64,000 bases of DNA from Sorangium aterium. Its GTDB lineage: Bacteria; Myxococcota_A; Polyangia; Polyangiales; Polyangiaceae. Positions 5,492-57,741 of the stretch are shown here, piece after piece; positions within the stretch are counted from its first letter, which is position 1; each line of letters opens with the position of its first letter. Below the pieces are notes generated by a model, which saw only the letters and a list, made by a program, of their open reading frames with translations, made no database searches and was not told the origin of the DNA. Made by a program: the position numbers and the translations under genes. Where the stretch lies: the NCBI RefSeq assembly GCF_028368935.1, contig NZ_JAQNDK010000001.1, positions 930,001-994,000 of the forward strand. The letters run 5' to 3'.

Positions 5492-6961
5492 ATGGGTCGG
5501 GACAGGGGCGAGCGGACATCCGGACCGTTCGGACACGCGGACGCGAACGGGGCGTCCGGAGGGGACCACGACTCGGAAGCAGGGAGCCCGGTGGGCGGGC
5601 CCTGCCAGCTTGGCGGGATCCCCGCGCCGGGCGGGGTGACCGCGCGCGGCGATGACGAGATTGACTACAAGGCCGAGTGCGCGGCGCTGCGCGCGCGCGT
5701 CGAGGAGCTCGAGAATGAGCTGGCCAGTCGGCGCGGCGAGCTCGGGCGCGAGAGAGGGTTGGTCAGCGCGGCGGCGGCGTACCTCGACGCGCCGTTCCCG
5801 CTGGGCGCCACGCAGGTGCCGGCGCTGATCCACTGGCGCGTGGATGGCACCGTGACGCGCTGGAACGACGCCGCCAGGTGCCTCTTCGGCTGGAGCGAGG
5901 GCGAGGCCGTCGGCCGCCGGCTCTCCGAGCTCGTGGCCGCAGATCCGGTGTCGCCCGAGGAGGTGCAGGCGTTCAACCACGATCCCGGCGAGAGCCTCTT
6001 CGCGACGACGACGAGCGTGGGCAGGACGAGAGAGGGAGACGCGATCACCTGCCGGTGGACCTACGCCGTGCTGCGCGATGAGCGAGGCGACGTCCGGGAG
6101 ATCGCGGCCATCGTGGATGAAGGCGACGATCCGCGGCAGAGAGAGCGCCTGATGCACGAGCGCTATCGGATGCTCCTGCAGCTCGTGGACAACTCGCCGA
6201 ACGTCATGTTCATCAAGGACGCGGAGGGGCGCTACGTGTTCCTCAACCGCCATTATGCGCGGGCCATCGGGCGGCACGTCATCGAGTTCCTCGGCAGGGA
6301 CGAGCATGAGTTCGGCGCCACGCCGCCCGGCGTGGCCGACCGGATCGTGGAGAAGGAACGGGAGGTGTTCGCGAGCGGCCAGGCCATGCGGTACCAGGAG
6401 GTCCTGGACTACGGCAGCCAGAATTTCTATTTCTTCACGGTCAAGTTCCCGGTTCGCAACGAGCGCGGCGAGCTGATAGGCGTCGGCGGCGTCGTGAGAG
6501 AGGACACCGACCTGAGGCGCGCGGAGGCGGAGCGGGCCGCGCTGCAGGAGCAGATCATCGCCGCGCAGCAGGAGGCGCTCAGGGAGCTGTCGACACCGCT
6601 CATCCCGCTCGCCGACGGCGTCCTGGTCATGCCGCTCGTCGGGACGGTGGACAGCGCGCGCGCGGGGCAGATCATGGAGACGCTGCTCACCGGGATCAGC
6701 GGCCAGCGCGCCCACACCGCGATCCTGGACATCACCGGCGTGCGCGCTGTCGACACGCTCGTCGCCGATGCGCTGACGCGGACCGCGCGCGCCGCCCAGA
6801 TGCTCGGCGCGCGCGTGGTGCTCACCGGCATCCGCCCCGAGGTGGCGCGCGCCCTGATCGATCTCGGCGCCGACCTCACCGGCATCGTCACGATGGGCAC
6901 CTTGCAGAGCGGCATCGCCTATGCGCTCCGGCCCACGGAGCGCCCGCGCGCTGCCCGGTGA
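5492..6961 (+). CDS. PAS-PAS-STAS sensor protein (RsbR type)
   Basis: A cytoplasmic protein of 489 residues: an acidic, low-complexity N-terminus, a short coiled coil (about 55-75), PAS domain 1 (about 95-205), PAS domain 2 (about 225-345), a coiled linker, and a C-terminal STAS domain (about 370-480). The STAS part carries LDITGVRAVDT, with Thr415 at the place phosphorylated by RsbT-type kinases in stressosome proteins. The ATG at 5492 is preceded by GGGGAGGAG with six bases of spacing; the frame is open upstream to 5381 but without a ribosome site. No RsbS or RsbT partner is adjacent, so it is an orphan. A second, single-gene relative lies at 41252. Confidence 0.85.
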   Translation: MGRDRGERTSGPFGHADANGASGGDHDSEAGSPVGGPCQLGGIPAPGGVTARGDDEIDYKAECAALRARVEELENELASRRGELGRERGLVSAAAAYLDAPFPLGATQVPALIHWRVDGTVTRWNDAARCLFGWSEGEAVGRRLSELVAADPVSPEEVQAFNHDPGESLFATTTSVGRTREGDAITCRWTYAVLRDERGDVREIAAIVDEGDDPRQRERLMHERYRMLLQLVDNSPNVMFIKDAEGRYVFLNRHYARAIGRHVIEFLGRDEHEFGATPPGVADRIVEKEREVFASGQAMRYQEVLDYGSQNFYFFTVKFPVRNERGELIGVGGVVREDTDLRRAEAERAALQEQIIAAQQEALRELSTPLIPLADGVLVMPLVGTVDSARAGQIMETLLTGISGQRAHTAILDITGVRAVDTLVADALTRTARAAQMLGARVVLTGIRPEVARALIDLGADLTGIVTMGTLQSGIAYALRPTERPRAAR

Positions 6962-22257: not shown

Positions 22258-23499
22258 TCAAGGCGGCGGGCCGAGGAGCTCCTCGAAGTCGCTCATCATC
22301 GTGCGAAAGTAGCTCTCCGCAGGCGAGTAATGGTCCCCTGCGTACGTGCGCAGCACGACGTCGGCGTCGGCCGCCAGCAGCGCGGTGTAGGTATCCACGC
22401 TGTTGTAGTACGGCACGATATCGTCCTGCTCTCCGGAGTGCAGGAACACCTTGCCGCGGGGCGTCCAGCCTTCATGAAGATCCTGGCGCTCCGCGACCAT
22501 TGCGAGGAAATCGCCCTCCACCCCCTCGGCGAACCCGTCGAGGAACCCCCGTTGATACACCTCCGTGGGCCGCTGCGACTGGACGGAGAGCGCGTCGAGC
22601 GCGCCTGCGACCGGATAGCGCCAGATCTCCTCCGCGGGGATGTTCAGCCCGGAGAGCGTGTTGGCGCTATAAACGGCCCAGTTGTAGATGGCGAGAGAGT
22701 CGAGCTCGCCCTCGGCGGTCATGATCTCGCGGTAGAACCGGCTCATGTGGTACGGGCCCGCGAAGGGAGCGCTGGCCGTCACCTCCAGGCGGTCGCTGTG
22801 CTCCTCCGTGATGAGCTTGTGGGTCGCGAGCGTGGCGCCGCCGCCCTCGGACCAGCCGGCGAGGAACAGCCGGTCATTCAGCGTCACGTCGAGCTGTTCG
22901 GCGAGCGTCTGAGCCGCCAGGATCATGTCCACCGAGACGGCAGCCAGCTCCGGATGATACGCATAGGTGTGCTCCAGATCGCTCGTGATATTGTAGCCTG
23001 CATAGTCGGGAGCCGAGACGAAGTAACCATGAGACGCCGGAACCGCGACGAGGAAGCGGGTCTCCAGCTGATTGGCGTCGTCCTTCGGTCCTGAGCCATC
23101 GTAGAGCGACGGAGCGTCGAGGCTGCCCTCGCCGTCCGACGACGGAAACGGCAGCATCGTGCCGTGGTGGTACTGGTAGTGCGAGAGGGGCCCCGCCGCT
23201 CTGGGCACCATCACGAGGCCGGAGAGCACCTCCGGAGTGTCCTTGTAGACCGACGAGTAATAGACACGATAGACGTCCACATCGTATCGCACGAGCTCGG
23301 CGAGGTCGTACTCCGGCACGTTGGCCGCGATCTGCTCCCCGGTGAGGGTGGCTGCCTTCTCATGGCGCAACAGGTCGCCACGCTCCGAGGGCTCGAGCTT
23401 CGGCACACCGCCGCCCACGACATCATCAGGAGCCGTGGGAGCGCAGGCAGCGAGCAGAGACACGGAGAGGACCGCTGCGAGGCGTTCAGCGCAGGTCAC
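22258..23499 (-). CDS. Secreted lipase-like alpha/beta hydrolase (lipoprotein)
   Basis: A protein of 413 residues with a lipoprotein signal (SVSLLAAC). The fold is that of secretory lipases: nucleophile Ser in GWSEGGGATL, an acidic residue in HSGEQDDIVP, and His in YAGDHYSPAESY. The oxyanion-side segment YQYHHGTMLPFP is also typical. The GTG start at 23499 is decided by AGGAGGAG four bases upstream; the frame is open far upstream, but that part overlaps the next gene in another frame. It probably hydrolyses lipids or esters at the cell surface. The 314-base gap to 23813 contains no other gene. Confidence 0.88.
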   Translation of the reverse strand: MTCAERLAAVLSVSLLAACAPTAPDDVVGGGVPKLEPSERGDLLRHEKAATLTGEQIAANVPEYDLAELVRYDVDVYRVYYSSVYKDTPEVLSGLVMVPRAAGPLSHYQYHHGTMLPFPSSDGEGSLDAPSLYDGSGPKDDANQLETRFLVAVPASHGYFVSAPDYAGYNITSDLEHTYAYHPELAAVSVDMILAAQTLAEQLDVTLNDRLFLAGWSEGGGATLATHKLITEEHSDRLEVTASAPFAGPYHMSRFYREIMTAEGELDSLAIYNWAVYSANTLSGLNIPAEEIWRYPVAGALDALSVQSQRPTEVYQRGFLDGFAEGVEGDFLAMVAERQDLHEGWTPRGKVFLHSGEQDDIVPYYNSVDTYTALLAADADVVLRTYAGDHYSPAESYFRTMMSDFEELLGPPP

Positions 23500-23813
23500 G
23501 TTGCTCCTCCTGAATATCGGCGTGTGCCCGAGCGGCGCGCCTCGCTTGCCGTCTGAACCAGCTTGGCGACCCAACGACCGCAGCGAGCTTATCACGGGCC
23601 GTTGAGCAGCACCAGCGAGATGGAGGTCCCCGGGCGCCATCCTGAGCGCGTTCGTCGAGGGGCGAGAAACGAAGCCCCTCGGATAACCTGGTCGGTTCGC
23701 TTCTCTGCTGCCGCTCGTGAGCGTGGCGTGCCGGTCTCGGCCGCGAGCCGCCGCATCACTCGGGGGCAGAACAGGCCAGGGAGACGCCATGGCCGGCGCT
23801 ACGCCGAGCAGGT

Positions 23814-39013: not shown

Positions 39014-39175
39014 GAGATCAAAGACATCCTGTTCTCGCTCTCCAAGCAAGTTCACCTGATAAGGCCGCTGCAGAGCAAGCAATCGCTCTTCTTCTACGTG
39101 GCCCTCGACCGCGCGCGGGCCAACCTGGCGATGGCAAATCACGCTGGCGGAGATCGAGAAGAGCTCACGCTCTAG
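39014..39175 (+). pseudogene. Relic of a roadblock/LC7-type protein gene
   Basis: The frame reads EIKDILFSLSKQVHLIRPL, then SKQSLFFYVALDRARANLAMA, the C-terminal half of small roadblock-like proteins common in myxobacteria (pattern DIL..L..QYHLIRPL....LFLYLxLDRxRANLAMA). After NH a one-base shift separates it from LAEIEKS in another frame. The N-terminal half is absent. This short region follows the carbonic anhydrase gene directly. Confidence 0.5.
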
Positions 39176-39228
39176 AGCGAAAACCGGTTGAAACTGCCTG
39201 AAAGCGCAGAATTTCGAACCGAAGGCGT

Positions 39229-39285
39229 CATGAGACGCCAAGATATTCATCTTATGGCATCTTGGCGTCTCATGGCGTCTTGGCG
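39229..39285. repeat. 16-base inverted repeat plus direct repeat of TCTTGGCG
   Basis: CATGAGACGCCAAGAT (39229-39244) and ATCTTGGCGTCTCATG (39259-39274) are perfect complements around a 14-base loop. The element ATGGC(A/G)TCTTGGCG is also repeated directly at 39255 and 39272. It could be a terminator for the convergent P450 gene or a dispersed palindromic element. Confidence 0.7.
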
Positions 39286-39344
39286 GTTCACTTCTCGCTT
39301 GAGCAACGTGATCGGTGGTCTAGCGGCTCCAGCGCCCTCGAAGT

Positions 39345-40568
39345 TCAGGGTTTGGCGCGCCTCCGCAGCACTAGCGGGAGCGACTCGAACCCGAGCGGCA
39401 TCATCGCCCGCGTCTGCCGCAGCGGAGGCGCCTCGCCGGGCGTGATGGACTCATAGCCGTCGAGGAGCGCGTTCAGGGCGATCCGCGCCTCCATCCGCGC
39501 CAGCGCCGCGCCGATGCAGAAATGGGTCCCCTGCCCGAACGCCAGGTGCTCCACCGGCGGACGGTCGAGCCGGAACGCGTCCGGCTCCTCGAAGACGGCC
39601 GGATCCCGGTTCGCCGCGCCGAACACGACGTCGACCAGGTGCCCGGCCGGTATCATCACGCCGCTCACGTCCACCGGCCGCGTGGCGACGCGCAAGAGGC
39701 GCTGCACCGGGCTCGAATGGCGCAGCGTCTCCTCGATGATGGGCTCCACGAGGCTCCGGTCCTGCTGGGCGCGCCGGTAGAGCTCGGGCCGCTCGGACAG
39801 GAGGTGCGCCATGTTGCCGATGAGGTTCGTCGTGGTGTCGTTGCCGGCGACGAGCAGGCCGACGCAGAAGCCGACCGCCTCGGGCGTGTCGAGGCGCGCG
39901 CCGTCGATCTCGGCCTCCACGAGCGCCGAGATGAGATCGCCTGACGGCGCGCGCCGCCGCGCCTCGAGCTCCGCCGCGAAGAAGTCGACCATCGCCTTAC
40001 CGCGGCTCGCGCGTTCCTCCGCCGGTATACCGCTGTACGACATCACGGACTCGGACCAGCTCCGAAATTGCGCATAGCGCTCCGCCGGGATGCCGAGCAG
40101 GGTGGCGATCACCATCATCGGCAGGGGCATCGCGTAGGCGTCCATGAGATCTGACGGCCCGTCGCCCGTCGCTTCGAGCAGCGAGGCGGCGAGGCGGCCA
40201 ATCCACGGCTCGAGCTCTGCGATGCGCCGCGGCGTGAACGATCGGCTGACGAGCCTGCGGAGGTGGGTGTGCCGGGGCGGATCGTCGTGCAGCAGCGTGA
40301 TCCGCGGCAGGACACGGATCTTGTCCGTGACGTTCGACGAGAACGTCTGGGGATCCCGCAGCGCCGAGAGCACCTCCGCGTGGCGCAGGAGCGCGTAGGC
40401 ACGGATTGGCTCGCCGAGGCCCGCGGCGCCGCCCGCGGGCACGCGCGCATAGAGCACCGGAGATCGCCCTCGGAGCGCGCGGTATGCGGGGTAAGGATCG
40501 GCTATCACCGAAGGCGCGGAGAGGTCGATGTGCTCGGGCGAGGGGCTCGCGGCGGTCTCGGTTTCCAT
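39345..40568 (-). CDS. Cytochrome P450 (bacterial class I type)
   Basis: A soluble P450 of 407 residues, as usual for bacterial enzymes. The I-helix oxygen-binding block is AGNDTTTN, the ExxR motif is EETLR, and the heme loop is FGQGTHFCIGAALAR with Cys351 as the axial ligand. It needs separate ferredoxin and reductase partners, which are not in the window. It is divergent from the PAS-STAS and terpenoid genes; a role in oxidising the product of the nearby cyclases is inferred from position. Confidence 0.92.
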   Translation of the reverse strand: METETAASPSPEHIDLSAPSVIADPYPAYRALRGRSPVLYARVPAGGAAGLGEPIRAYALLRHAEVLSALRDPQTFSSNVTDKIRVLPRITLLHDDPPRHTHLRRLVSRSFTPRRIAELEPWIGRLAASLLEATGDGPSDLMDAYAMPLPMMVIATLLGIPAERYAQFRSWSESVMSYSGIPAEERASRGKAMVDFFAAELEARRRAPSGDLISALVEAEIDGARLDTPEAVGFCVGLLVAGNDTTTNLIGNMAHLLSERPELYRRAQQDRSLVEPIIEETLRHSSPVQRLLRVATRPVDVSGVMIPAGHLVDVVFGAANRDPAVFEEPDAFRLDRPPVEHLAFGQGTHFCIGAALARMEARIALNALLDGYESITPGEAPPLRQTRAMMPLGFESLPLVLRRRAKP

Positions 40569-40698
40569 GTCAAGGTCACAGCGGCGCAGCCGCTCTACCG
40601 GACAGGAGATCCAAGCGGTTCGTGGAAGTCAAGTCCTTTCCCCTGGTGGTACGACAGCATAGGTGACCGCGTGGATCTCCGGGCGGTGTCCGCTCGAT

Positions 40699-40770
40699 CA
40701 CCGCGATGAGGCACCGCGATGAGGCACCGCGATGAGGCACCGCCATGAGGCACCGCCATGAGGCACCGTC
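40699..40770. repeat. 13-base tandem repeat, five copies
   Basis: CACCGCGATGAGG is repeated at 40699, 40712 and 40725, then CACCGCCATGAGG at 40738 and 40751, with a partial sixth copy. It lies in the 683-base gap between the divergent P450 and PAS-STAS genes. Confidence 0.85.
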
Positions 40771-41025
40771 ACGCGACGGTCACCGGGCGGCGTCGCCGAG
40801 GGAGCGATGATCGCGAACCCCCGGGGAATATGCGTAGCTCCTCCGATGTCGCCGGCGCCCTCACGGCGCGGCGGCAGACATGAGGAGCTCGGTCTTCCCA
40901 TCTCGTCTGACCCCGTGCATCGCGGCGCTTCCGGGCCGAACGGATTGAACAGCATCCTGGACGCCGACCCCGATCACACATCGGGAATGGCCTTAGCACG
41001 AGTTCCGGATCTACCCGGCCTCAGC

Positions 41026-41101
41026 CGGAGATGTGCGGCTTGTAATCTCGCAATGCAAGCTGGAACCCTCGCTCGGATCGAAGCGTTTTTGCACATCTCC
41101 G
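41026..41101. promoter_or_regulatory. Spaced 11-base inverted repeat upstream of PAS-STAS gene
   Basis: CGGAGATGTGC (41026-41036) and GCACATCTCCG (41091-41101) are perfect complements 54 bases apart, about 150 bases before the ATG at 41252. They could be paired operator sites or a stem. No gene is supported between 40771 and 41251; the open frame at 40807 lacks coding features. Confidence 0.35.
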
Positions 41102-41251
41102 AGCGCTCGTCATCGCTCTCGCGGGTCCTGAGAGGGGTGAGTCTGCCGATGCCGATTCTTGGTCAATGACACGCGCGATCCACGGCCCCTACGAACGAGG
41201 TGAGCACGGGTAGGAGGCCTGAATCGGGCTTGGGGGAGGGCAACATTCGTC

Positions 41252-42442
41252 ATGACACAGCATTATATGAGTTCACGCGACCCGTGGGAGGCGGCCTATC
41301 TCTACTCCCCCGAGGCGCTGTTCGTAGCGGACATCGACGGCACGCTGTCGCACTGGAGCGAGTCATTCGGCCACACGGTCGGGCACGCGGCCACGCCGGG
41401 GACGGCGTTCTTCCAGCTCTTCCACGACGACGATCGCGAGGCGGCCCGGGCGAAGTGGTCTGTGCTTCTGGAGACGCCCGGGGCCGTCGAGCTCTGCGGG
41501 CGGGTGATGACGGCCGGGAACGTGTATGCGTCCTTCTCCTGCGTGCTGCGCAGAGCGCCGCACGGCCAGGCGGTCTACGGCTCGCTGCACCCGACGTCCG
41601 GCGCCGTCGATCTCCCCGCCGCCGGGCCCGGGAAGGGAGAGGACGCGGACATGCTCCGCGCCCTCTCCGACAACCTCCCTGTCATCGTCTGGTCATGCGA
41701 CGCGGCGGGGGTCATCACCCGTCACGACGGGAGGGGCCTGGCGGGGCTCGGCCTCAAGCGGGGGCAGCTCGTCGGGACGAACCTCTTCGACGTCTTTGCC
41801 AGCGCTCCCGAAGGCACGGAGAACGTGAGGAGGGCGCTCCGCGGGTGTCCCTCCCATTCGATGAGCCACGTCCCCGCCAACAATTCGTTCTGGGAAAACT
41901 GGATGGTGCCGATCCAGAGCCCGCTCGGAAACGTCGAGTCCGTGATCGGGCTCTCGCTCGACGTCTCGGAGGCGAAGAGAGCGGAAGAGGAGCTCCGACT
42001 ACGGCTGTTGCAGATCCAGAAGCAGCAGGAGGTCATCGGCAAGCTCTCGACGCCCATCATCCAGGTCTGGGACGGGGTGGTCGCGCTGCCCATGGTCGGC
42101 GTCGTCGACAGCGCGAGGACCGCCGACGTCATGCAGAACCTGCTCGACGAGATCGTCCGCACCAGCGCGCGGTATGCCATCCTGGATCTCACGGGCGTCG
42201 AGATGGTGGACACGCAGGTCGCGAATCACCTGATCAAGCTCGTGAACGCCATCCGGCTCCTCGGCGCGGGCGGGATCATCTGCGGCATCAGGCCGTCGGT
42301 CGCGCAGACGATCGTCGAGCTGGGCCTCGATCTGGACAGCATGGTCACGCGATCGAACCTGCGGGCTGGAATCATGTTCTGCATCAACCAGATGCGCCAG
42401 CCCGCGACGACGCCGGCGGCGAACGGCTCTTCGGGCCGCTGA
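41252..42442 (+). CDS. PAS-STAS sensor protein (RsbR type)
   Basis: A cytoplasmic protein of 396 residues. Two PAS-like domains (about 10-115 and 130-240) are followed by a coiled linker rich in Gln/Lys and a STAS domain (about 270-375). The STAS core ILDLTGVEMVDTQVANHL keeps the Thr and Asp-Thr residues of stressosome RsbR proteins. GGGGGAGGG lies upstream of the ATG, with a longer than usual gap. No rsbS or rsbT is adjacent. It sits between two P450 genes at the head of the terpenoid genes and could sense a signal for the cluster, but that is inference. Confidence 0.85.
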   Translation: MTQHYMSSRDPWEAAYLYSPEALFVADIDGTLSHWSESFGHTVGHAATPGTAFFQLFHDDDREAARAKWSVLLETPGAVELCGRVMTAGNVYASFSCVLRRAPHGQAVYGSLHPTSGAVDLPAAGPGKGEDADMLRALSDNLPVIVWSCDAAGVITRHDGRGLAGLGLKRGQLVGTNLFDVFASAPEGTENVRRALRGCPSHSMSHVPANNSFWENWMVPIQSPLGNVESVIGLSLDVSEAKRAEEELRLRLLQIQKQQEVIGKLSTPIIQVWDGVVALPMVGVVDSARTADVMQNLLDEIVRTSARYAILDLTGVEMVDTQVANHLIKLVNAIRLLGAGGIICGIRPSVAQTIVELGLDLDSMVTRSNLRAGIMFCINQMRQPATTPAANGSSGR

Positions 42443-42608
42443 CCCGCGGCGTCTCCCCTTCTGCTTCTGCTCGCGCGGCGCGGGCGTTCGGCATCGTCGA
42501 TCCGGCAAGCACCCCCGGCGCCTCCGGCGGCGCGCGCGCGAGCTCGTGACGACGACGAGACAGGCTCCGCAGGCGCGGTCGCAGCGAGAAGCGAAAACGA
42601 GGTTCGTC

Positions 42609-43937
42609 ATGCTCTCCCCGGGTCGAACCGACCAAGACAGCATCCCCACCGCGGCCGGAGAGCTGCCGGTGCTCGGTCACCTGCCCGTCCTTTACCGGGA
42701 CGCCGTCGGCCTTCTGCGCCGCAGCAGGAGCGCGCTGGGTCCGCTCTTCTGGGTCAACCTCGGGTTCGCGCAACGTCGGCTCTTCTATGTGGGAGCCGAC
42801 GCGCTCGATCTCCTGCGCGCGCCCGAGGTGGTCATGGACCATCCGGAGCACCTCAAGGGGATCGTGGGCCGCTCGATGGCTGGGCAGGACGGGCCGATGC
42901 ACCGGCGCATGCGCTCGGCCATCAACCCCTCGTTCTCCCCGCAGGGGTTCGCCAAGGAGGCCTCCGCCACCATGGCCTCCGCGTTCGCTGCGAAGATCGA
43001 TGGCTGGCTCCAGCAAGAGAGCTTCGCGGTCCATCCCGCCATGCGGGATCTGACCCTCGAGATCATCTTTCGAATCTGCGGGGTCCCGATAGAGGATGTG
43101 CCCGCCTGGAGCCGGGCCTATCGCGAGCTGTTCTTGGGTGTTTACCCGATCCCGGGTCGTCTGCCAGGCATGCCCGCGTACCGCTCGGATCGCGCGCGCG
43201 CCTGGATAGACGACCGCCTGCGGAGGCTCCTCGCGCTCGCTCGCCGGGGCGGCGCCGCGGGCTCTCTCGTCGAAATGCTCTCGAAGGCTCGCGACGACGA
43301 GGGCGAGCCCCTGTCGGACCAAGACATCGTCGACAACCTTCGCGCGATATTGCTCGCCGGGCACGAGACCAGCGCCTCCATCCTGGCCTGGATCGTCATC
43401 GTCCTGTCGCGCCGGAGCGAGGTGTGGAGCGCGCTCTGCGACGAGCACACGGCGGCGCCGGACGCGTCCGTGCCCATGTCCGCGAGAGAGGCGGACCGGT
43501 TCCCTGTCACCAACGCCATCTTCCGGGAGGTCCTGCGGATGTACACGCCGGTCTGGTTCATCTTCCGGACGGTCACCGAGACGATCACGCTGAACGGTAG
43601 GCGCATCCCTCGAAATACGCCGCTGGCCCTCAGCCCCGCGCAATTCGGTTATGATTCATCGCTGTTCCCGGACCCCGACCGCTTCGATCTGAGCCGCTGG
43701 AGCGATCGCTCTAGCCCACCGGGTCCGCTGGAGCTGGCCGCGTTCGGCGGGGGGCCGCACTTCTGTCTTGGATACAACGTCGCTTGCATCGAGGCGCTCC
43801 AGCTTCAGTTCCTCCTCGTCCGGGCGTTGCGCCGCGCCGGGCTCGTTCCACACTTGGAGGGCGCTTCGCCGAAGCACGTGTACTTCCCGACCGGGCATCC
43901 GGCGGCCGCGACACGGGTCGTCTTTCGCCCGAGCTGA
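42609..43937 (+). CDS. Cytochrome P450
   Basis: A P450 of 442 residues from ATG 42609, preceded by GAGG (a GTG start at 42546 is possible but has no ribosome site). The proline-rich entry GELPVLGHLP resembles eukaryote-like families such as CYP120 or CYP51. The I-helix is AGHETSAS, the ExxR motif is REVLR, and the heme loop is FGGGPHFCLG with Cys386. It is unlike the P450 at 39345. It lies 122 bases before the class II cyclase gene on the same strand, so it probably hydroxylates the cyclised diterpenoid. Confidence 0.92.
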   Translation: MLSPGRTDQDSIPTAAGELPVLGHLPVLYRDAVGLLRRSRSALGPLFWVNLGFAQRRLFYVGADALDLLRAPEVVMDHPEHLKGIVGRSMAGQDGPMHRRMRSAINPSFSPQGFAKEASATMASAFAAKIDGWLQQESFAVHPAMRDLTLEIIFRICGVPIEDVPAWSRAYRELFLGVYPIPGRLPGMPAYRSDRARAWIDDRLRRLLALARRGGAAGSLVEMLSKARDDEGEPLSDQDIVDNLRAILLAGHETSASILAWIVIVLSRRSEVWSALCDEHTAAPDASVPMSAREADRFPVTNAIFREVLRMYTPVWFIFRTVTETITLNGRRIPRNTPLALSPAQFGYDSSLFPDPDRFDLSRWSDRSSPPGPLELAAFGGGPHFCLGYNVACIEALQLQFLLVRALRRAGLVPHLEGASPKHVYFPTGHPAAATRVVFRPS

Positions 43938-44058
43938 ACGGGCAGCGCTCGAGCGCCCCAGCGCATCGAGGCATCGACCACGATCTCCGGCGGGACGACT
44001 CTCTTCACCATCAACACGGTCGCCGGCGGCAGCCGGTCCTCACCGGGTGGATCAGCGC

Positions 44059-45594
44059 ATGAACACCTCGCCGCATTCGAGTCCTTCCGATCGCGCTCTG
44101 GCCGGGCTTCGCGCGCTGGTGGCGGAGCTCGGGCGAGGCGGAGGCTCCGTCAGTCCCTCGGTGTACGACACCGCCACCGTGCTGATGTTCGATGTCTTTC
44201 CCGAAGCCAGGGAGAGCATCATCCGGTGGCTTCTCGAGCAGCAGCGGCCGGACGCGGGCTGGGGGCTCTCGTCGGTGCCCCGCGCGCGCGATCTCCCGAC
44301 GCTGGCGTCGATCGTGGCCCTCCATCCCTACCGCGAGCTCATGCCGCAGGTACGCCGCGCCTGCGAGGGGGGCCTGGCGTTCCTGCGCGACCAGGCAGCT
44401 CATTGGGGCACGTCCTTGCCGGACGACATCCCTGTCGGGCTGGAGCTGCTCATGCCCAGGCTCCTCGACCGGGCCTCCTCGCTCGGCCTCGGTGTCGATT
44501 GGGACCCGTACAGGGCCCTCATCGCGCTCGGCGAGCGACGCCGGGCCTTGATCGGCAAGGCCCGGCCGGCGGCCGGCAGCGCGGCGTCGCACTCCTGGGA
44601 GGGCTGGGGGGGCGGCCCCTCGCCTGACCTCATCGACGTGAGCGGCGGCGTCGGGCACAGCCCCGCGGCCACAGCGGCCTGGCTCCACGCATCTCGGGAC
44701 AAGGCCGGCCTCGATGGCGCACGAGCGGCGGCGCGCGAGTACCTGCTCCGAGCGAGCGGCGCTACCGAGGTCGGAATTCCCGGCATCGTCCCCACGGTGT
44801 GGCCCATTCACCGGTTCGAGCAGGCCTGGGTCCTGTACGCACTGCGGGTCCTCGATCTGCTCGACCATCCCCGGCTGGGCGACGTGGCGCGGCCGCAGCT
44901 GCTCGACCTCGGCGCCGCGCTTCGCCCCGAGGGCATCGGCATGAGCGACGCGTTCACTCAGGATGGCGACATCACATCGACGGTCATCGCCACCCTGGGA
45001 GAGCTCGTGGCGCCTCGCGCCATCGGGACGCTGCGGCGCTTCGAGCGAGGGGGGATGTTCATCACGTACGCGAACGAGCTGCAGCCCTCGCTCACGACGA
45101 ATGCACACGCGATCCACGCCCTCGCGTCCTGCGGGGAGAAGGCGTCGACGCCAGCGCGGTACCTCCTCGAGCGCCAGCAGCCGGACGGGCGGTGGGTTGG
45201 CGACAAATGGCACAGCTCCTGGCTCTACACGACCAGCCAGGTCATCTTGGCCCTCTCGCACGAGGGGCACGTGCCCGCGGTGAAGCGCGGCCTGGAGGCG
45301 CTGCTGCGCGCCCAGGGTGGCGATGGCGGCTGGGGAGCCGGCAGCGCGCCCACCGCGGCAGAGACGGCGTACGCCGTGCTCGCGCTCCGCGCCGCACGAA
45401 GGAACCGCGAGCTCGAATCCATGGCGCGGAGCGCCTGGCGACGGGGGTGCGACTGGCTGATGTCGAACCATGACATCGGCGCCGGCCAGGAAGATCTCCG
45501 CTGGATCGGCAAGGAGCTGTATTGCCCGGCCCGGGTGGACCGCGCGTGGGTCCTCGGCGCGCTCCTCGTGTCGCAACCGCCATGGGAAAGCTAG
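44059..45594 (+). CDS. Class II diterpene cyclase (copalyl-diphosphate-synthase-like), DGDI motif
   Basis: A soluble protein of 511 residues, the length of bacterial ent-copalyl diphosphate synthases. The alpha-barrel repeats are marked by QW-like motifs (QRPDAGWG, QQPDGRWVGDKW, GGDGGWG). The catalytic DxDD motif reads D302-G-D304-I305-T: the middle Asp, the general acid in this family, is kept, but the last Asp is Ile. No DDxxD class I motif is present. It should protonate and cyclise GGPP, or a related diphosphate, to a bicyclic diphosphate for a partner enzyme. Its last 13 bases overlap the next gene. The start is ATG 44059. Confidence 0.85.
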   Translation: MNTSPHSSPSDRALAGLRALVAELGRGGGSVSPSVYDTATVLMFDVFPEARESIIRWLLEQQRPDAGWGLSSVPRARDLPTLASIVALHPYRELMPQVRRACEGGLAFLRDQAAHWGTSLPDDIPVGLELLMPRLLDRASSLGLGVDWDPYRALIALGERRRALIGKARPAAGSAASHSWEGWGGGPSPDLIDVSGGVGHSPAATAAWLHASRDKAGLDGARAAAREYLLRASGATEVGIPGIVPTVWPIHRFEQAWVLYALRVLDLLDHPRLGDVARPQLLDLGAALRPEGIGMSDAFTQDGDITSTVIATLGELVAPRAIGTLRRFERGGMFITYANELQPSLTTNAHAIHALASCGEKASTPARYLLERQQPDGRWVGDKWHSSWLYTTSQVILALSHEGHVPAVKRGLEALLRAQGGDGGWGAGSAPTAAETAYAVLALRAARRNRELESMARSAWRRGCDWLMSNHDIGAGQEDLRWIGKELYCPARVDRAWVLGALLVSQPPWES

Positions 45595-46760
45595 ACGATC
45601 TGATCGAAAAGACGTGGCAGAGCCATGTCTTCGGCGATTCCTACCCGACCGCCGTCGGCCCTCGCGCGCTCTCCGAGAGGATGCGGGCCGTTTACTCGTG
45701 TTTTGTCGAGAGGTTCCGCCCGATCGTCCAGGAAGCCTTACCCGACCTGGATCCGGAGCACGTCGAGCGCCTCGTGCGCCAGATCGGCCCCAAGGCGACC
45801 GCGTTCTGCGCCGCGATCGCGATCGAAATCGAGAATGTCGAGCGCCTCGCCGCGGTCTCCATCGTATTTGGACTCCTCTACCTTCTCGATGGCCTGATGG
45901 ATGACGGGGACCTGGCGATCGTCGCCGCAACGCACCGGTTCATCGAGGTTCACGCGCCGCGCCTGCACATTGCTGCAGCGAACGACACGAAGCAGCTGGC
46001 GTCCGCCGTACTCCTGAGCGAGCTCGAGGCGGCCAGAGCGCCGCGCCCCGATCCTGCCCTCGTCGCTGCGCGCGCTCGACCCCTGGAGGAGGTGGCGCGC
46101 CTGCTGCGTCGCCTGAGCCCTGAGGACGCAGGCGCGCTCATCGAATCGCCTGTCGCCGGCTTTCTGAGCCATGGCTCCGCCATGCGGCAGCTCAGCCAGC
46201 GATACGTCGAGCGCGAAGAGGGCGCGTTCTGGGACGATCACGCCGACGATTTCGTCGCGCATGCGATCGGGAGCATTCAGACGGCCGGGACGGTCGCCGT
46301 CGTCTATAGCCTCTACCGGAGCGCGAGCCCCGAGCTCCCCACGATCGGACAGGTGCTGGCCGCCCCGGCGGTCAGGCGCGTGTGCGAGCGATTCGCCGAC
46401 GCGGCTTCGCGCATCTTCGACGACGTGGGAGATCAGGACGTCGATCGACGCTCGGGCTCCCGGGGCCGGTTCGATCTCAACCTCTTCAACCATCCGAACA
46501 GAAGGCTCGTCGAGGCAACCATGCGGTTCGTCGGCGTCGATGACGAGGACATCATCGCGGCGACGCTGCGCGACCTCGCCGCCGACGACAGCGCCGGGGA
46601 TGGCCGCGTCGTCGAGCGATTCGTCGACGTCGTGCGCGGCGGCGTGGCGAGCTTGCCGGCGGAGCGCTGGCGCGACGCGGGCGTGTTCCTGATGCTCCTC
46701 AAGAGGATCATCGAGTCGGGATACGTCAACACGCTGGGGGACGCCGCGCTCGCGGAGTGA
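45582..46760 (+). CDS. Isoprenoid synthase-fold protein (class I terpene synthase or prenyl synthase-like)
   Basis: An all-helical protein of 392 residues. Two metal-binding signatures are placed as in the type I isoprenoid synthase fold: D103-GLM-D107-D-G-D110 in LLYLLDGLMDDGDL, and D280-D-VG-D284-QDV-D288 in RIFDDVGDQDVD. The second has the spacing of the class I NSE triad but also resembles a prenyl-synthase second Asp-rich motif (followed by FDLNLF and Pro). It could be the class I synthase acting on the cyclase product, or make the prenyl diphosphate. The ATG overlaps the cyclase stop by 13 bases, so the two are translationally coupled. Confidence 0.7.
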   Translation: MGKLDDLIEKTWQSHVFGDSYPTAVGPRALSERMRAVYSCFVERFRPIVQEALPDLDPEHVERLVRQIGPKATAFCAAIAIEIENVERLAAVSIVFGLLYLLDGLMDDGDLAIVAATHRFIEVHAPRLHIAAANDTKQLASAVLLSELEAARAPRPDPALVAARARPLEEVARLLRRLSPEDAGALIESPVAGFLSHGSAMRQLSQRYVEREEGAFWDDHADDFVAHAIGSIQTAGTVAVVYSLYRSASPELPTIGQVLAAPAVRRVCERFADAASRIFDDVGDQDVDRRSGSRGRFDLNLFNHPNRRLVEATMRFVGVDDEDIIAATLRDLAADDSAGDGRVVERFVDVVRGGVASLPAERWRDAGVFLMLLKRIIESGYVNTLGDAALAE

Positions 46761-50223: not shown

Positions 50224-50940
50224 TCAGAACTTCTCCTCCGACGGGCGCACGTCGATCTCGAGGGTCCAGGCGCTCGGCGCCTGGGCGTGGAGCTGGAAGT
50301 AGGTCTCTGCCAGCGCCTCCGGCGATAGCAGGGTGGCGGCCGTCCTCCCGGGCATCATGGCGCGGACCCGCGGGGTGTCGATCAGCCCGTCGATGACGAC
50401 GTGCGCCACGTGGATGCCGCGCGGGCCGAGCTCGCGCGCGAGCGACTGCGCGAGGGCGCGCAGGCCGGCTTTGCCGACGGCGAGGGCCGCGAAGCGGGCT
50501 CCGCCGCGGAGCGAGGCGGTGGCGCCCGTGAAGAGGATCGTCCCTCGGCCGCGCTGGAGCATGCCGGGCAGCGCCGCCTGCGCGCTCAGGAAGCCGCCGA
50601 GGCAGTTGATCTTCCAGTCGTCCTCGAGCTCTCGCGGCGTGAGCTCCAGCGCGCCGGCCACGCGGAACACGCTGGCGTTGTAGATCAGCACCTCGACCGG
50701 CCCGAGCGACTCCTCCACGCGCGCGAAGGCCGCCGCGACGGAGGCCGCGTCGGTGGCGTCCCCCGGGACGCTCAAGGCGCGCCCTCCGGCGCCCTCGATC
50801 TCCCGCTGCACCGCCTCACACGCGGCGGCCGTCCGGGCCATGAGGCCGACGGAGAACCCCTCGCGCGCGAAGCGCCTCGACACCGCGGCCCCGAGTCCTG
50901 GGCCGACGCCGACGACGACCGTTGCCTTGTTCGAGCTCAT
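50224..50940 (-). CDS. Short-chain dehydrogenase/reductase lacking the catalytic Tyr
   Basis: A protein of 238 residues with an SDR Rossmann fold. The cofactor motif is GVGPGLGAAV, the NNAG-type block is IYNASVF, and the Ser region is FTGATASL. In the YxxxK position the sequence is LAVGK, so Lys is kept but Tyr is replaced by Leu. Close families with F in this place exist. It may be a poor oxidoreductase or have another role. The helix LARELGPRGIHVAHVVIDG is characteristic of this subgroup. Confidence 0.88.
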   Translation of the reverse strand: MSSNKATVVVGVGPGLGAAVSRRFAREGFSVGLMARTAAACEAVQREIEGAGGRALSVPGDATDAASVAAAFARVEESLGPVEVLIYNASVFRVAGALELTPRELEDDWKINCLGGFLSAQAALPGMLQRGRGTILFTGATASLRGGARFAALAVGKAGLRALAQSLARELGPRGIHVAHVVIDGLIDTPRVRAMMPGRTAATLLSPEALAETYFQLHAQAPSAWTLEIDVRPSEEKF

Positions 50941-53939: not shown

Positions 53940-54323
53940 ATGGTGGAAATTACATCTGCTTTACAGGAGGAAAGCGTCCAGGGCGTCACCAGCGCCATTG
54001 CGGCAGCCTGGGAAGAAGTTGTAGTACTGGCTCAGCTTTGGCGAAGACACCCTCCCAACTCGTCAAAGTTCGAGGAAAAGCCCTGCCATGACGAACCACG
54101 AAAGCCATTTGCTTGGCGAGCGCGCCGCAAGGCAACACGCCAACACGAGCAAGACTCCGCCCCAGTGGGCCGGTGCCACCCCGCGTTGGCTCGTGCAGCT
54201 GCTCCCCTGGACGCCCGTCGAAGCAGGCGTGTACCGCCTCAACCGGGTCACCGATACCGATTTCGCGGTCGATTGCAGCCCGGAGGACGCCGCCGAGCTG
54301 CCCACGGCGCGCATCCACTATGA
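53940..54323 (+). CDS. Candidate small ORF overlapping the encapsulin start
   Basis: An ATG with an excellent ribosome site (AGGAG, six bases) opens a frame VEITSALQEESVQGVTSAIAAAW and so on, in a different frame from the shell gene. It runs about 49 codons before the encapsulin ATG and then continues 78 more inside it as low-quality basic sequence. The first part is not obviously GC-biased coding sequence. It may be a regulatory leader, a coupled small protein, or a frameshifted relic. No family was recognised. Confidence 0.3.
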   Translation: MVEITSALQEESVQGVTSAIAAAWEEVVVLAQLWRRHPPNSSKFEEKPCHDEPRKPFAWRARRKATRQHEQDSAPVGRCHPALARAAAPLDARRSRRVPPQPGHRYRFRGRLQPGGRRRAAHGAHPL

Positions 54324-54996
54324 AGAGCAGCCGCGCGAGTTCGTGCTCAACACGGTGACCACGACGATCCAGGTGCACACCCGGATCTCCGACCTGTTCC
54401 GCAGCCCCATGGATCAGGTGAAGGAGCAGCTCACCGTCCTCGTCGAGAAGCTCAAGGAGAAGCAAGAGGACGAGCTGATCAACAACGGCAATTACGGCCT
54501 GCTCAACAGCGTGCATGAGAGCATGCGGGTCAAGCCGCGCGGCGCTGGCCCCACGCCGGACGATCTCGACGAGCTGATCGCGCGCGTGTGGAAGGAGCCC
54601 GCCTTTTTCCTGGCGCACCCGCGCGCCATCGCGGCGTTCGGTCGCGAATGCACGAAGCGCGGCGTTCCGCCGCCCACCGTGACCCTGTTTGGCTCGCCGT
54701 TCCTCACGTGGCGCGGCCTGCCGCTCATCCCCACCGACAAGCTGCACCTCGCGGGCAACAAGACCGATATCCTGCTGGTCCGCACCGGCGAGAAGAAGCG
54801 CGGTGTCGTGGGCCTGTTCCAGCCGGGGATCCAGGGCGAGGTGAGCCCGAGCCTGTCGATTCGCTTCATGGGCATCAACCAGCTCGGGGCTGCCTCGTAC
54901 CTCGCGTCCCTCTACTGCTCGGCGGCGGTTCTGACCGAAGATGCGCTCGGCGTGCTCGAGGGCGTTCAGGTGGACAGCTACTATGAGTACAAGTGA
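54088..54996 (+). CDS. Family 2A encapsulin shell protein (SrpI type)
   Basis: A protein of 302 residues with the HK97-like fold of family 2A encapsulins, without the cyclic-nucleotide domain of family 2B. The N-terminal arm has AARQHANTSKTPPQ, then PRWLVQLLPWTPVEAGVYRLNRV, which is diagnostic. The E-loop segment covers FAVDCSPEDAAEL to YEEQPREFVLNTV, and the C-terminal core holds SIRFMGINQLGAASYLASLYCSAAVL. It should assemble into a protein shell of about 25 nm around the desulfurase. GAGGAAA precedes the ATG at nine bases. Its last 14 bases overlap the desulfurase gene. Confidence 0.93.
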   Translation: MTNHESHLLGERAARQHANTSKTPPQWAGATPRWLVQLLPWTPVEAGVYRLNRVTDTDFAVDCSPEDAAELPTARIHYEEQPREFVLNTVTTTIQVHTRISDLFRSPMDQVKEQLTVLVEKLKEKQEDELINNGNYGLLNSVHESMRVKPRGAGPTPDDLDELIARVWKEPAFFLAHPRAIAAFGRECTKRGVPPPTVTLFGSPFLTWRGLPLIPTDKLHLAGNKTDILLVRTGEKKRGVVGLFQPGIQGEVSPSLSIRFMGINQLGAASYLASLYCSAAVLTEDALGVLEGVQVDSYYEYK

Positions 54997-57238
54997 GATC
55001 CAGACAGCGGATCTCCAGGGTGCTCTGCCGCAGGTGACTCGCGTCGTGGGGAGCTCTGGGATCGCGCCGTTGAACGTGCCGCTCTCGGCGCCGGGCGTCG
55101 CGCCCGCGTCGGCACCGGAGATCCCTGGCTTCGACCCCGCCTCCCTGGCCGCGGTGATCGCGCAGCTCGCCAACGAGATGCTCGGCGCGCCGTTCAAGCA
55201 GGGGGCGGCGGCGGCGCCAGCGGCTCCGCCGGCGCCGACGGCGGCGCCGCTGCCCGGCGCGGCGCCGTCGCAGTCACCCGTCCCGCACCTGGCGGCGGCT
55301 GGCGCGACGCCGTCACCTGTTCCGGGGCCGTCCGCGGCGGCGGCCCCCGTATATCCCGGGTCGGCCCCCGCCTATTCCAGCTCGGTCCCCGCCTACTCCG
55401 GCTCGGCCCCCGCCTACTCCGGCTCGGCGCTGCCGGCTGCCGGCTCGGTCCTCGCTGCTTCCGGCGCCGCGCCCGCCTCCCCCGGCGAGGTGTCGCTGCC
55501 CGGTGTCTCGCCGTCGCTGTCGCCCGCCCCGCCCGTGCAGGCGCCTGGCGCGACGCCGTCGGGCGTCTCTCCGTCGCTGTCGCCCGCCCCGCCCGTGCAG
55601 GCGTCTGGCGCGACGCCGTCGGCTGCCGCTGGACCCTCCGCGGCGGCGGCCCCGGTCTATCCCGGGTCAGCCCCCGCCGCTCCCGGCGCGGCGCCGCCCG
55701 CTCCCGGCTCGGTCCCCGCTTATTCCGGCGCGACGCCCGCCTTCCCCGGCGAGGTGTCGCTGCCGGACTCGGCGGTGCGCGCCGGGTTCGTCCGCGTCCC
55801 GCTCGTGGGCTCCGATCCGCTGAGCCTGGGAGCGGCCGACGAGGTGCTCCGCATCCCGGTGCTGGGCGATCTCGCGGGCCGCGACGCCGACGCCTACTTC
55901 GTGCCCGGCGCGCCCGCGCTGGGCATCGAGTCGCCCGTCGGCCCTCCCCAGGTCGAAGCCCACGAGATCCGCGCCGTGGATCCCGCGCTGGTCCGCGACC
56001 TCAGCCGCTCCGCCGGCATCCTGGACCCCCACGCGATCCGCCGCGACTTCCCCATCCTCGACGAGCGGGTCCACAACAAGCGGCTCGTCTGGCTCGACAA
56101 CGCGGCGACGACCCAGAAGCCCCGGGCCGTCATCGATCGGCTCTCGTACTTCTACGAGCACGAGAACTCGAACATCCACCGCGCGGCGCACGCGCTCGCG
56201 GCCCGCGCGACGGACGCGTACGAGGCGGCGCGCGAGGCGACGCGCCGCTTCATCAACGCCCCGTCCACGCGCGAGATCGTGTTCGTGCGCGGCACCACCG
56301 AGGGGATCAACCTGATCGCCCAGAGCTGGGGCCGGAGGAACGTGGGCCCGGGCGACGAGATCGTCATCACGTGGCTCGAGCACCACGCCAACATCGTGCC
56401 GTGGCAGCAGCTCTGCTCCGAGAAGGGCGCCAGGCTCCGTGTCGCTCCCGTGGACGACAGGGGCCAGGTGATCCTCGAGGAGTACGAGAAGCTGCTCGGC
56501 CCGCGGACGCGCATCGTCTCGATCACGCAGGTGTCGAACGCGCTCGGCACCATCACGCCCGCGCGCGAGATGGTGGCGATGGCGCACCGGCACGGCGCGC
56601 GCGTGATCGTGGACGGCGCGCAAGCGGTGTCCCACATGCGCGCGGACGTGCAGCTCCTCGACTGCGACTTCTACGTGTTCTCGGGACACAAGGTGTTCGG
56701 TCCCACGGGCATCGGCGCTGTCTTCGGCAAGAGCGAGGTGCTCGACGCGATGCCGCCCTGGCAGGGAGGCGGCAACATGATCGCGGACGTCACCTTCGAG
56801 CGGACGATCTACCACCCGCCGCCCGCGCGCTTCGAGGCCGGCACCGGCAACATAGCGGACGCGGTCGGCCTCGGCGCCGCGCTCGACTACGTGACGCGGA
56901 TCGGGATCGAGAACATCGGCCGCTACGAGCACGAGCTGCTCCACTACGCGACGCACGCCCTCGCGAGCGTCCCCGGGCTGCGGCTCATCGGCACCGCGGC
57001 CGACAAGGCGGGCGTGCTCTCCTTCGTCCTCGATGGGCAGCGCACCGAGGACGTGGGCGGGGCGCTCGACCGGGAGGGCATCGCGGTGCGCTCGGGCCAC
57101 CACTGCGCCCAGCCCATCCTGCGCCGCTTCGGCCTGGAGAGCACCGTGCGCGCGTCGCTCGCCCCCTACAACACCTGCGAGGACATCGACGCGCTGGTTG
57201 ACGCGTTGCATCGGATCCAGATCGGCAGGTCTCGCTGA
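54983..57238 (+). CDS. Cysteine desulfurase (SufS type), encapsulin cargo with disordered N-terminus
   Basis: A protein of 751 residues. Residues 1-340 are Pro/Ala/Ser-rich and probably disordered, with an exact 20-residue repeat and AYSGSAP-like repeats, then more conserved blocks (about 256-310; GEVSLPDSAVRAGFVRVPL, PVLGDLAGRDADAYFVPG). Residues ~345-750 are a SufS-family desulfurase: PLP Lys570 in FSGHKVFGPTG, and active-site Cys708 in RSGHHCAQPILRRFG. It should remove sulfur from cysteine, giving alanine and a persulfide. Such an N-terminal domain directs family 2A cargo into the shell. ATG 54983 overlaps the shell gene by 14 bases, so they are co-translated. Confidence 0.93.
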   Translation: MSTSEIQTADLQGALPQVTRVVGSSGIAPLNVPLSAPGVAPASAPEIPGFDPASLAAVIAQLANEMLGAPFKQGAAAAPAAPPAPTAAPLPGAAPSQSPVPHLAAAGATPSPVPGPSAAAAPVYPGSAPAYSSSVPAYSGSAPAYSGSALPAAGSVLAASGAAPASPGEVSLPGVSPSLSPAPPVQAPGATPSGVSPSLSPAPPVQASGATPSAAAGPSAAAAPVYPGSAPAAPGAAPPAPGSVPAYSGATPAFPGEVSLPDSAVRAGFVRVPLVGSDPLSLGAADEVLRIPVLGDLAGRDADAYFVPGAPALGIESPVGPPQVEAHEIRAVDPALVRDLSRSAGILDPHAIRRDFPILDERVHNKRLVWLDNAATTQKPRAVIDRLSYFYEHENSNIHRAAHALAARATDAYEAAREATRRFINAPSTREIVFVRGTTEGINLIAQSWGRRNVGPGDEIVITWLEHHANIVPWQQLCSEKGARLRVAPVDDRGQVILEEYEKLLGPRTRIVSITQVSNALGTITPAREMVAMAHRHGARVIVDGAQAVSHMRADVQLLDCDFYVFSGHKVFGPTGIGAVFGKSEVLDAMPPWQGGGNMIADVTFERTIYHPPPARFEAGTGNIADAVGLGAALDYVTRIGIENIGRYEHELLHYATHALASVPGLRLIGTAADKAGVLSFVLDGQRTEDVGGALDREGIAVRSGHHCAQPILRRFGLESTVRASLAPYNTCEDIDALVDALHRIQIGRSR

Positions 57239-57244
57239 CGTGAC

Positions 57245-57281
57245 GCCCGGCGGCTGTCCGCTGAGACGGACACCGCCGGGC
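57245..57281 (+). terminator. Strong terminator-like hairpin after encapsulin operon
   Basis: GCCCGGCGG and TGTCCG pair with CGGACA and CCGCCGGGC, a 15-bp stem with one bulged C and a 6-base loop, starting seven bases after the desulfurase stop. There is no U-tract, as is common in GC-rich genomes. Confidence 0.6.
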
Positions 57282-57426
57282 TCCCTGCCGACCGATTTCG
57301 CCGCCCAACCCTCCGGTTGGATCTCCAAATTAGGCTGAACCCCCGGGATTTCGAAGGATTTCGTCTCGACGGCGAACTTGTGTCCCCCGGGTTGCCACTG
57401 TCGTACGCGTCCGTTATAATGGACGC

Positions 57427-57741
57427 ATGATCCAGACGATATCGCCCAGGGACGCGGACGAGCTGATCAAGAGCGGGGAGGTTGACGTTGTGGATGTGCG
57501 TGAGCCACGCGAGTGGTCGGTCGGACACGTGCCGCACGCGCGGCTGGTGCCCCTCGATCAACTGAGAGCGGATCCGCAGCGGGCCCTGCCGCGCGATCGG
57601 GTGGTGTTCGTGTGCGCGAAGGGCGCCCGCAGCCTGACGGCGGCGAAGCTCGCCGAGCGGCTCGGGTTCAACCAGCTCTACAACCTGGATGGCGGGACGA
57701 GCGGTTGGGTCAAGGCGGGGCTTCCGCTCGAGCACAGCTGA
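57427..57741 (+). CDS. Single-domain rhodanese-like sulfurtransferase
   Basis: A protein of 104 residues, one complete rhodanese domain. The active-site loop is VCAKGARSLTAAKLA, with Cys as the persulfide carrier, and VVDVREPREWSVGHVPHA is the other conserved block. It is cytoplasmic and moves sulfane sulfur to acceptors. It lies 188 bases after the desulfurase, beyond the hairpin, so it is a separate but same-strand unit that could accept sulfur released by the encapsulated enzyme. Confidence 0.93.
   Translation: MIQTISPRDADELIKSGEVDVVDVREPREWSVGHVPHARLVPLDQLRADPQRALPRDRVVFVCAKGARSLTAAKLAERLGFNQLYNLDGGTSGWVKAGLPLEHS

Follow-up and report, generated by a model that had tools for sequence, protein, structure and literature searches.

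A candidate, partly gibberellin-like diterpenoid gene cluster in Sorangium aterium with an altered class II cyclase and an unrecognized partner gene

We analyzed a 64,000-nucleotide stretch of the genome of the myxobacterium Sorangium aterium (positions 930001 to 994000 of contig C1; called the window here), in which a first-pass annotation had proposed an undescribed diterpenoid gene cluster. We conclude that this is a real, partly gibberellin-like diterpenoid cluster, in which the class II cyclase has two changed catalytic motifs and its partner gene is unrecognized. All five open reading frames (ORFs) of positions 39345 to 46760 are present, and we propose that the core unit consists of a cytochrome P450 gene (P450B), the cyclase gene, and the gene overlapping the end of the cyclase ORF (gene 5) (Table 1). 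By a narrow preference, we read this unit as encoding an oxidized ent-labdane-related diterpenoid, made by the cyclase, by gene 5 as a class I synthase, and by P450B.

Table 1. Genes of the cluster and motifs of the cyclase and gene 5 (positions in the window)
Feature	Position	Strand	Evidence or remark
P450A	39345-40568	-	Pfam p450, E = 1.6e-30; divergently oriented bacterial P450; membership doubtful
PAS-STAS (RsbR-like) regulator	41252-42442	+	Pfam STAS, E = 1.1e-12; PAS_4, E = 4e-11; possible cluster regulator
P450B, CYP117-like (ent-kaurene oxidase family)	42546-43937	+	Pfam p450, E = 1.1e-35
Class II diterpene cyclase, 511 residues	44059-45594	+	Pfam SQHop_cyclase_C, E = 5.5e-13
Base-dyad motif SHS	within 44587-44601	+	dyad His kept
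Base-dyad motif PTV (in place of PNV)	start of 44791-44829	+	Thr (T246) for dyad Asn
Catalytic-acid motif DGDI (in place of DxDD)	44962-44973	+	proposed general acid D304
WIGKELY	45502-45522	+	matches WIGKxLY
Gene 5, 392 residues, presumed divergent class I diterpene synthase	45582-46760	+	position, overlap, motifs
DGLMD, residue 103 of gene 5	45888-45902	+	D-rich motif, DGxxD form
DDVGDQDVD, residue 280 of gene 5	46419-46445	+	NSE-like motif

Results

Family and relatives of the cyclase

Sequence comparison places the cyclase among the diterpene cyclases, and the closest relatives that we found are the ent-copalyl diphosphate (ent-CPP) synthases (CPSs) of the rhizobial gibberellin operon. The protein matched 124 plasmid records, and the best 20 of these 124 were all from Rhizobium (39.4 to 39.6% over 98% of the protein). 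In a direct comparison, it was 39.7% identical to the CPS of Rhizobium tropici CIAT 899 over 496 residues (E = 4e-97). Its best matches in the PDB were 6vpt, which is named only "Cyclase" (E = 1.9e-38), and the ent-CPP synthase 5bp8 (E = 3.6e-35). We also built a tree of 12 cyclases, from which Haur_2145-type and gammaproteobacterial CPSs were absent. The window cyclase and four rhizobial CPSs were joined with a support of 100/100; outside this group fell three cyclases from actinobacteria and four more from the host's own phylum. These data agree with the class II diterpene cyclase named at this position in the first-pass annotation.

The same annotation had held that a squalene-hopene cyclase-type enzyme would overturn its proposal. 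We found that the protein scored 46.6 bits against the hopene_cyclase model (640 positions), for which the cut-off is 431.1 bits. Given this score, the length of the protein, and its diterpene cyclase relatives, we rejected a squalene-hopene cyclase. That it is this or another triterpene cyclase, as the Pfam match in Table 1 might suggest, is extremely improbable.

In an even draw of 376 other genomes of the phylum, we found only two others (34% and 29% identical to the window cyclase), and 182 other genomes of the order held two relatives (35% and 33%). A scan of genome_contigs, which reaches close relatives only, gave no confirmed relative. The loci of three of the genomes with cyclases (G073, G477, and G465) are unlike the window cluster, and in G158 the cyclase lies on a contig of only 4.6 kb.

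Catalytic motifs of the cyclase

In the catalytic-acid motif, DGDI, the middle Asp is retained and the third Asp of DxDD is replaced by Ile. The chain 6vpt has DCDT, that is, a Thr at the place of the third Asp. Passages of PMC12410513 list as marks of gibberellin-type CPSs a His-Asn base dyad (LHS and PNV), a Phe three residues before DxDD, FExxW, FxTF, (D/E)KW, and WIGKxLY. They describe the other verified bacterial cyclases as having no aromatic residue closely upstream of DxDD. The window cyclase keeps F299 three residues before the acid motif, FEQAW, DKW, WIGKELY, and the dyad His; FxTF reads FITY, with Tyr for the second Phe. The base dyad is only half conserved, with its His kept in SHS and its Asn changed to Thr in PTV.

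Changes in this dyad have been reported to alter the product. In one Rhizobium lineage, according to a section of PMC7273348, an Asn-to-Ser change at the dyad shifts the product mainly to 8-beta-hydroxy-ent-CPP. Ala substitutions in the dyad are reported to shift the product similarly, and one of the mutants still made some ent-CPP (PMC11469919); Thr may fill the same role in fungal CPSs (PMC12410513, same passages). These reports make it reasonable to expect ent-CPP, 8-hydroxy-ent-CPP, or both from the window cyclase.

P450B and its relatives

P450B was 34.6% identical to R. tropici CYP117 over 434 residues (E = 8e-85), and its best 20 listed plasmid matches were Rhizobium P450s (35.6%). In several of those plasmid records, the P450 lies about 2 kb from the CPS, which is the place of cyp117. 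The I-helix, ExxR, and heme-Cys motifs are intact in both P450A and P450B, and the heme motif of P450B is FGGGPHFCLG. Two P450 genes do lie within the range, as the first-pass annotation had said.

When we searched 183 genomes of the order, the nearest relative of P450B (50% identity; 48.8% in a second comparison) came from G477, a congener of the host. The two P450s were sisters (100/100) in a tree of P450s, which did not settle how CYP117, this pair, and other P450s of myxobacteria branch relative to each other. The cyclases of the two clusters share only about 31% identity and are not grouped in the cyclase tree, although the P450s are sisters; therefore, a single lineage of P450s accompanies two dissimilar cyclases. 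This lineage is thus found on two occasions with diterpene cyclases. The host itself encodes a second CYP117-like P450 (L067, contig C1, about 2289 kb), which is 39% identical to P450B and 40% to CYP117; we found no cyclase in the 18 kb fetched around it and close copies in at least two congeners.

The G477 cluster (L063:8087-13541) has the order geranylgeranyl diphosphate (GGPP) synthase, class II cyclase, class I synthase (Terpene_syn_C_2, E = 7e-13), P450. It resembles the window cluster in its P450 (49% identical to P450B), in a cyclase with a neighboring gene, and in an adjacent STAS protein. In contrast, its cyclase keeps DxDD, its class I gene is recognized by Pfam, unlike gene 5, and its gene order is different. 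We found no class I synthase of the G477 type with its DALLD motif in the other 182 genomes of the order.

Gene 5

Gene 5 shares 13 nucleotides with the end of the cyclase ORF and occupies the place that the ent-kaurene synthase (KS) gene ks has relative to cps; rhizobial ks shares 4 nucleotides with cps. Its GC content at third codon positions (GC3) is 0.84, and GC3 of the cluster genes is 0.84 to 0.90. The first of its two motifs, DGLMD, resembles DALLD of the G477 class I synthase, and the second, DDVGDQDVD, was aligned to the NSE motif of KS by hhalign (P = 0.086 for gene 5 against KS). The spacing of the motifs is class I-like, and both depart from the canonical DDxxD and (N/D)Dxx(S/T/G)xxx(E/D).

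We searched for this motif pair with a pattern that was written after gene 5 had been seen. The pair occurred in 1 of 264 control proteins (38 host stretches) and in 238 of 20,000 shuffles of gene 5. In a mixed set rich in fetched terpene loci, it was found in 13 of 223 ORFs. These were gene 5, two others, nine ORFs identified as isoprenoid synthases from their annotation, Pfam, or blastp, and one unannotated ORF (L022), which sits at the GGPP synthase place of similar clusters.

We found no relatives of gene 5 in the 376 other genomes of the phylum draw (E ≤ 1e-3) or in plasmids, and none was confirmed in genome_contigs or viral contigs, where the scans reach close relatives only. Partial matches in 6 of the 182 other order genomes (E = 4e-4 to 9e-3, at most 168 residues) were treated as noise. 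A terpene synthase model run on the host genome gave three matches at two other loci and missed gene 5. With a low-confidence structural model of gene 5, Foldseek gave no match at E ≤ 0.001. Of the coupled isoprenoid-synthase-fold gene described in the first-pass annotation, a real ORF with a GC3 of 0.84 and the overlap stands, and none of our searches recovered the fold. Because of its position, its motifs, the rarity of the pair in controls, and the parallel cluster in G477, we think that gene 5 is probably a class I synthase.

Comparison with the gibberellin operon and other clusters

Around its best-matching CPS, R. tropici CIAT 899 encodes two P450s, a ferredoxin, a short-chain dehydrogenase/reductase (SDR), a third P450, a polyprenyl synthetase, the cyclase, and a 300-residue protein. 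This layout is the gibberellin operon as defined in a section of PMC7273348. We used cyp112-cyp114-fd-sdr-cyp117-ggps-cps-ks as the reference order. The 300-residue protein matched the crystallized Bradyrhizobium protein blr2150 (E = 1.4e-172), which we take to be the Bradyrhizobium ent-kaurene synthase.

The window cyclase and P450B are nearest to the operon's CPS and CYP117, and the order P450, cyclase, overlapping downstream gene is that of cyp117, cps, and ks. This contradicts the first-pass annotation, in which the order was held to differ from that of the rhizobial operon. The window is unlike the operon in that neither ggps nor fd has a match beside the cyclase, gene 5 is not recognizable as a KS, and the catalytic motifs are altered. 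P450A is only 32% identical to R. tropici CYP114 and 29% to CYP112, and the sole SDR lies away from the cluster on the opposite strand. When the eight R. tropici operon proteins were searched against the 64-kb window by tblastn (E ≤ 0.01), only the cyclase and the two P450s matched. A blastp search of the called window ORFs gave, for KS, one 46-residue match (E = 0.007) in an unrelated 130-residue ORF (23164-23556).

The SDR (50224-50940, minus strand) was found by blastp on called ORFs and is 33% identical to the operon SDR over 198 residues (adh_short, E = 6e-38). It lies downstream of gene 5, across a gap of 3.5 kb that contains three or more called ORFs, and belongs to a very large superfamily. 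We consider it probably unrelated and did not count it as a cluster member. The first-pass annotation had recognized no ferredoxin, separate kaurene synthase, or dehydrogenase; this holds for the ferredoxin and for any convincing KS, and the window does contain this one dehydrogenase, outside the range that had been described. The eight-gene gibberellin operon is not present in the window. Because there is no GGPP synthase or ferredoxin match there, gibberellin is very unlikely as the product. Elsewhere, the host genome (13.47 Mb) gave five prenyl synthase matches, of which two scored identically but lie on separate contigs.

Labdane-type clusters on Streptomyces plasmids (L021, L023, and L024; P450, GGPP synthase, cyclase, P450, class I synthase) are similar to the window cluster in kind of content. 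Their cyclases, however, are 27 to 30% identical to the window cyclase and form a separate actinobacterial clade. The family holds a further diterpenoid locus (L078, in G465, with L072), which encodes a GGPP synthase-like protein, an aldehyde dehydrogenase, a P450, a class II cyclase, and an HMG-CoA synthase-like protein and has a weak cis-prenyltransferase match (PF01255, E = 0.008). Among the open-license papers that our searches listed, we found no title or opening abstract describing such a cluster in myxobacteria or Sorangium, which agrees with its having been called undescribed. Myxobacterial terpene synthases are treated in PMC7192455 and PMC7321100, passages of which say nothing on this system.

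P450A and STAS neighbors

The membership of P450A in the cluster is doubtful. It is separated by 683 bp from the PAS-STAS gene, and the two genes diverge. In the order, the best relative of P450A (53%) comes from G373, and the 13.7 kb that we fetched there contain no cyclase. The host genome gave 31 P450 matches in all, some of which are pieces of one gene.

The PAS-STAS gene is confirmed between the two P450 genes. It had been described as an unusual companion; the STAS part, however, has many paralogs at the DNA level in all six congeneric genomes (the host and the five congeners compared), and thus the gene as such is ordinary. A second STAS-encoding stretch lies at 6566-6946 of the window. 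STAS proteins stand beside three of the four terpene loci that we saw in the genus, namely, the window cluster (41252-42442), the G477 cluster (L063:3090-8054), and a pair of a class I synthase and a P450 in the host (L082:2354-3580). The fourth locus, with a two-domain synthase, has no STAS neighbor, and no STAS protein was found at the cyclase loci of three other phylum genomes (L016, L017, and L078). Control stretches totaling 760 kb held four STAS proteins. The association was noticed post hoc and rests on few loci; a STAS regulator is possibly a common switch for terpene clusters. The host pair is found at about 345 kb of contig C2 (L102 and L082), where the class I terpene synthase adjoins the P450 and a GAF-STAS protein.

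Origin and surroundings of the cluster

A metallopeptidase gene and a carbonic anhydrase gene lie to the left of the cluster, and each is 83 to 88% conserved in the five congeners. The two genes are adjacent in only two congeners (G476 and G480), where the match stops right behind the carbonic anhydrase gene; in two others, the carbonic anhydrase gene lies elsewhere, and in the fifth it is on another contig. Among the matches listed, DNA matches across the cluster were only a repeat, STAS paralogs, and one P450 stretch. The GC content of the cluster genes is 67 to 72%, compared with 72 to 78% for the flanking genes. The few cyclase relatives, the broken synteny with congeners, and the lower GC content fit a strain-specific acquisition of the cluster.

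A dispersed repeat of about 150 bp lies at 39166-39325, just downstream of P450A; its copies are about 75 to 85% alike and occur in all six congeneric genomes. The window also contains a family 2A encapsulin locus (54088-57741) that encodes a shell protein and a cargo cysteine desulfurase, both above their NCBIfam cut-offs, and a rhodanese. On host contig C4 (L080:4-3591, about 914 to 916 kb), a two-domain terpene synthase, presumably of the geosmin type, is immediately followed by a family 2B encapsulin shell protein with a cyclic-nucleotide-binding domain.

Discussion

We propose the following route. GGPP would be supplied by a prenyl synthase encoded elsewhere in the genome, because the window has no GGPP synthase match. 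The cyclase would protonate GGPP through its general acid D304 and cyclize it. The resulting ent-labdadienyl diphosphate would be ent-CPP or, owing to the Thr that replaces the dyad Asn, partly or mainly its 8-hydroxylated counterpart. Gene 5, whose synthesis would be coupled to that of the cyclase by the overlap of their frames, would ionize this diphosphate as a class I synthase and release a hydrocarbon or an oxide (kaurane-, pimarane-, or manoyl oxide-like). P450B would then oxidize this product, plausibly at the C-19 methyl, where CYP117 oxidizes ent-kaurene. The end product would be an oxidized ent-labdane-related diterpenoid, not a gibberellin, and a STAS-type switch may control expression.

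Several of our results weigh against this route. Neither Pfam nor NCBIfam has a family that gene 5 matched, and none of the PDB chains matched it better than E = 1.6. It did not match PF19086 or PF03936 even at E ≤ 10 (HMMER filters drop most weak matches), whereas KS and the G477 synthase do match. Its first motif is DGxxD instead of DDxxD. When ranked by hhalign against two class I synthase profiles, it came 15th and 13th of 251 (with 250 of the 264 control proteins as decoys), which is not significant. A single-sequence AlphaFold2 model of gene 5 was poor (pLDDT 43), with an all-helical prediction at low confidence. In the cyclase, the third Asp that is lost from DGDI is kept in all eight other aligned cyclases and in two further bacterial cyclases, a count that excludes the motif of G158. 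The cluster has no GGPP synthase, blastp on the called window ORFs having given no ferredoxin or GGPP synthase match better than E = 0.1, and with an SDR resembling the operon SDR nearby, a larger pathway may have components that our list lacks. Finally, we opened seven other CYP117-like P450 loci and found no cyclase within the 9 to 18 kb fetched at six of them (the P450 of L069 lies close to the end of its contig), which weakens any inference from P450B alone. The first-pass annotation had treated P450s conserved elsewhere without the cyclase as evidence against the cluster. This is partly what we observed, for these six loci and for the G373 relative of P450A; the sister of P450B in G477, in contrast, does stand with a cyclase.

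The cyclase and P450B might alone make a bicyclic diterpenoid, with gene 5 as a tailoring or accessory protein acting, for example, on the diphosphate or on the final alcohol. In favor of this, none of our searches gave gene 5 a significant match to class I synthases, its hhalign ranks fall within the decoy range, and some bacterial class II clusters have no canonical class I gene, according to a portion of PMC9814783. The cps-ks-like position and overlap of gene 5, its rare motif pair (1 of 264 controls), the class I synthase beside the cyclase in the congener cluster, and the all-helical prediction, low in confidence as it is, argue for a synthase instead, and we regard an accessory role as rather unlikely. 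The cyclase might also make a rearranged clerodane or halimane diphosphate, as Haur_2145 does, so that the product would not be an ent-labdane. In a similarity network published in PMC9814783 (same portion), gibberellin-associated CPSs and Haur_2145 fall in one subfamily with mostly Gly at the position of Tpn2 G485. We mapped this position to the Gly of WIGKELY in the window cyclase, and the altered base dyad would also suit such a product. However, P450B is CYP117-like, and the Phe before the acid motif and the dyad His of gibberellin-type CPSs are both kept; although Haur_2145 itself is not in our tree, we find a rearranged product unlikely, somewhat more so than an accessory gene 5. These two alternatives are compatible with each other, so that the chances that we assign need not add up to one.

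A further alternative is that the locus is a decayed fragment of a gibberellin operon, in which the DGDI cyclase and gene 5 are inactive. The loss of the third Asp of DxDD, the loss of the dyad Asn, and the missing operon genes are what decay would leave. However, the ORFs are all intact, as are the P450 motifs; the catalytic middle Asp is kept; GC3 is high throughout the cluster; and 6vpt likewise has no third Asp. We therefore regard decay as quite improbable. Our preferred reading remains an oxidized ent-labdane-related diterpenoid made by the cyclase, gene 5, and P450B.

More speculatively, gene 5 could be the first member of a new lineage of class I diterpene synthases with DGxxD and DDxxDxxxD metal motifs. 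It would have evolved alongside a gibberellin-type cyclase that, through its changed acid and base motifs, yields an ent-labdane that is 8-hydroxylated or rearranged. In that case, a predator living in soil would have adapted a cassette for a plant hormone to the production of a new diterpenoid, controlled by a STAS-type switch. We put this forward tentatively, as possible but not what we would expect.

The cluster places a relative of gibberellin-type CPSs and a CYP117-like P450 in a myxobacterium that has most of the pathway missing at this locus. It offers a natural variant in which to examine how the product of class II cyclases depends on their acid and base motifs. Gene 5 may be a class I synthase of a kind that escapes the profiles now in use; if this is true, genome mining undercounts bacterial diterpenoid clusters.

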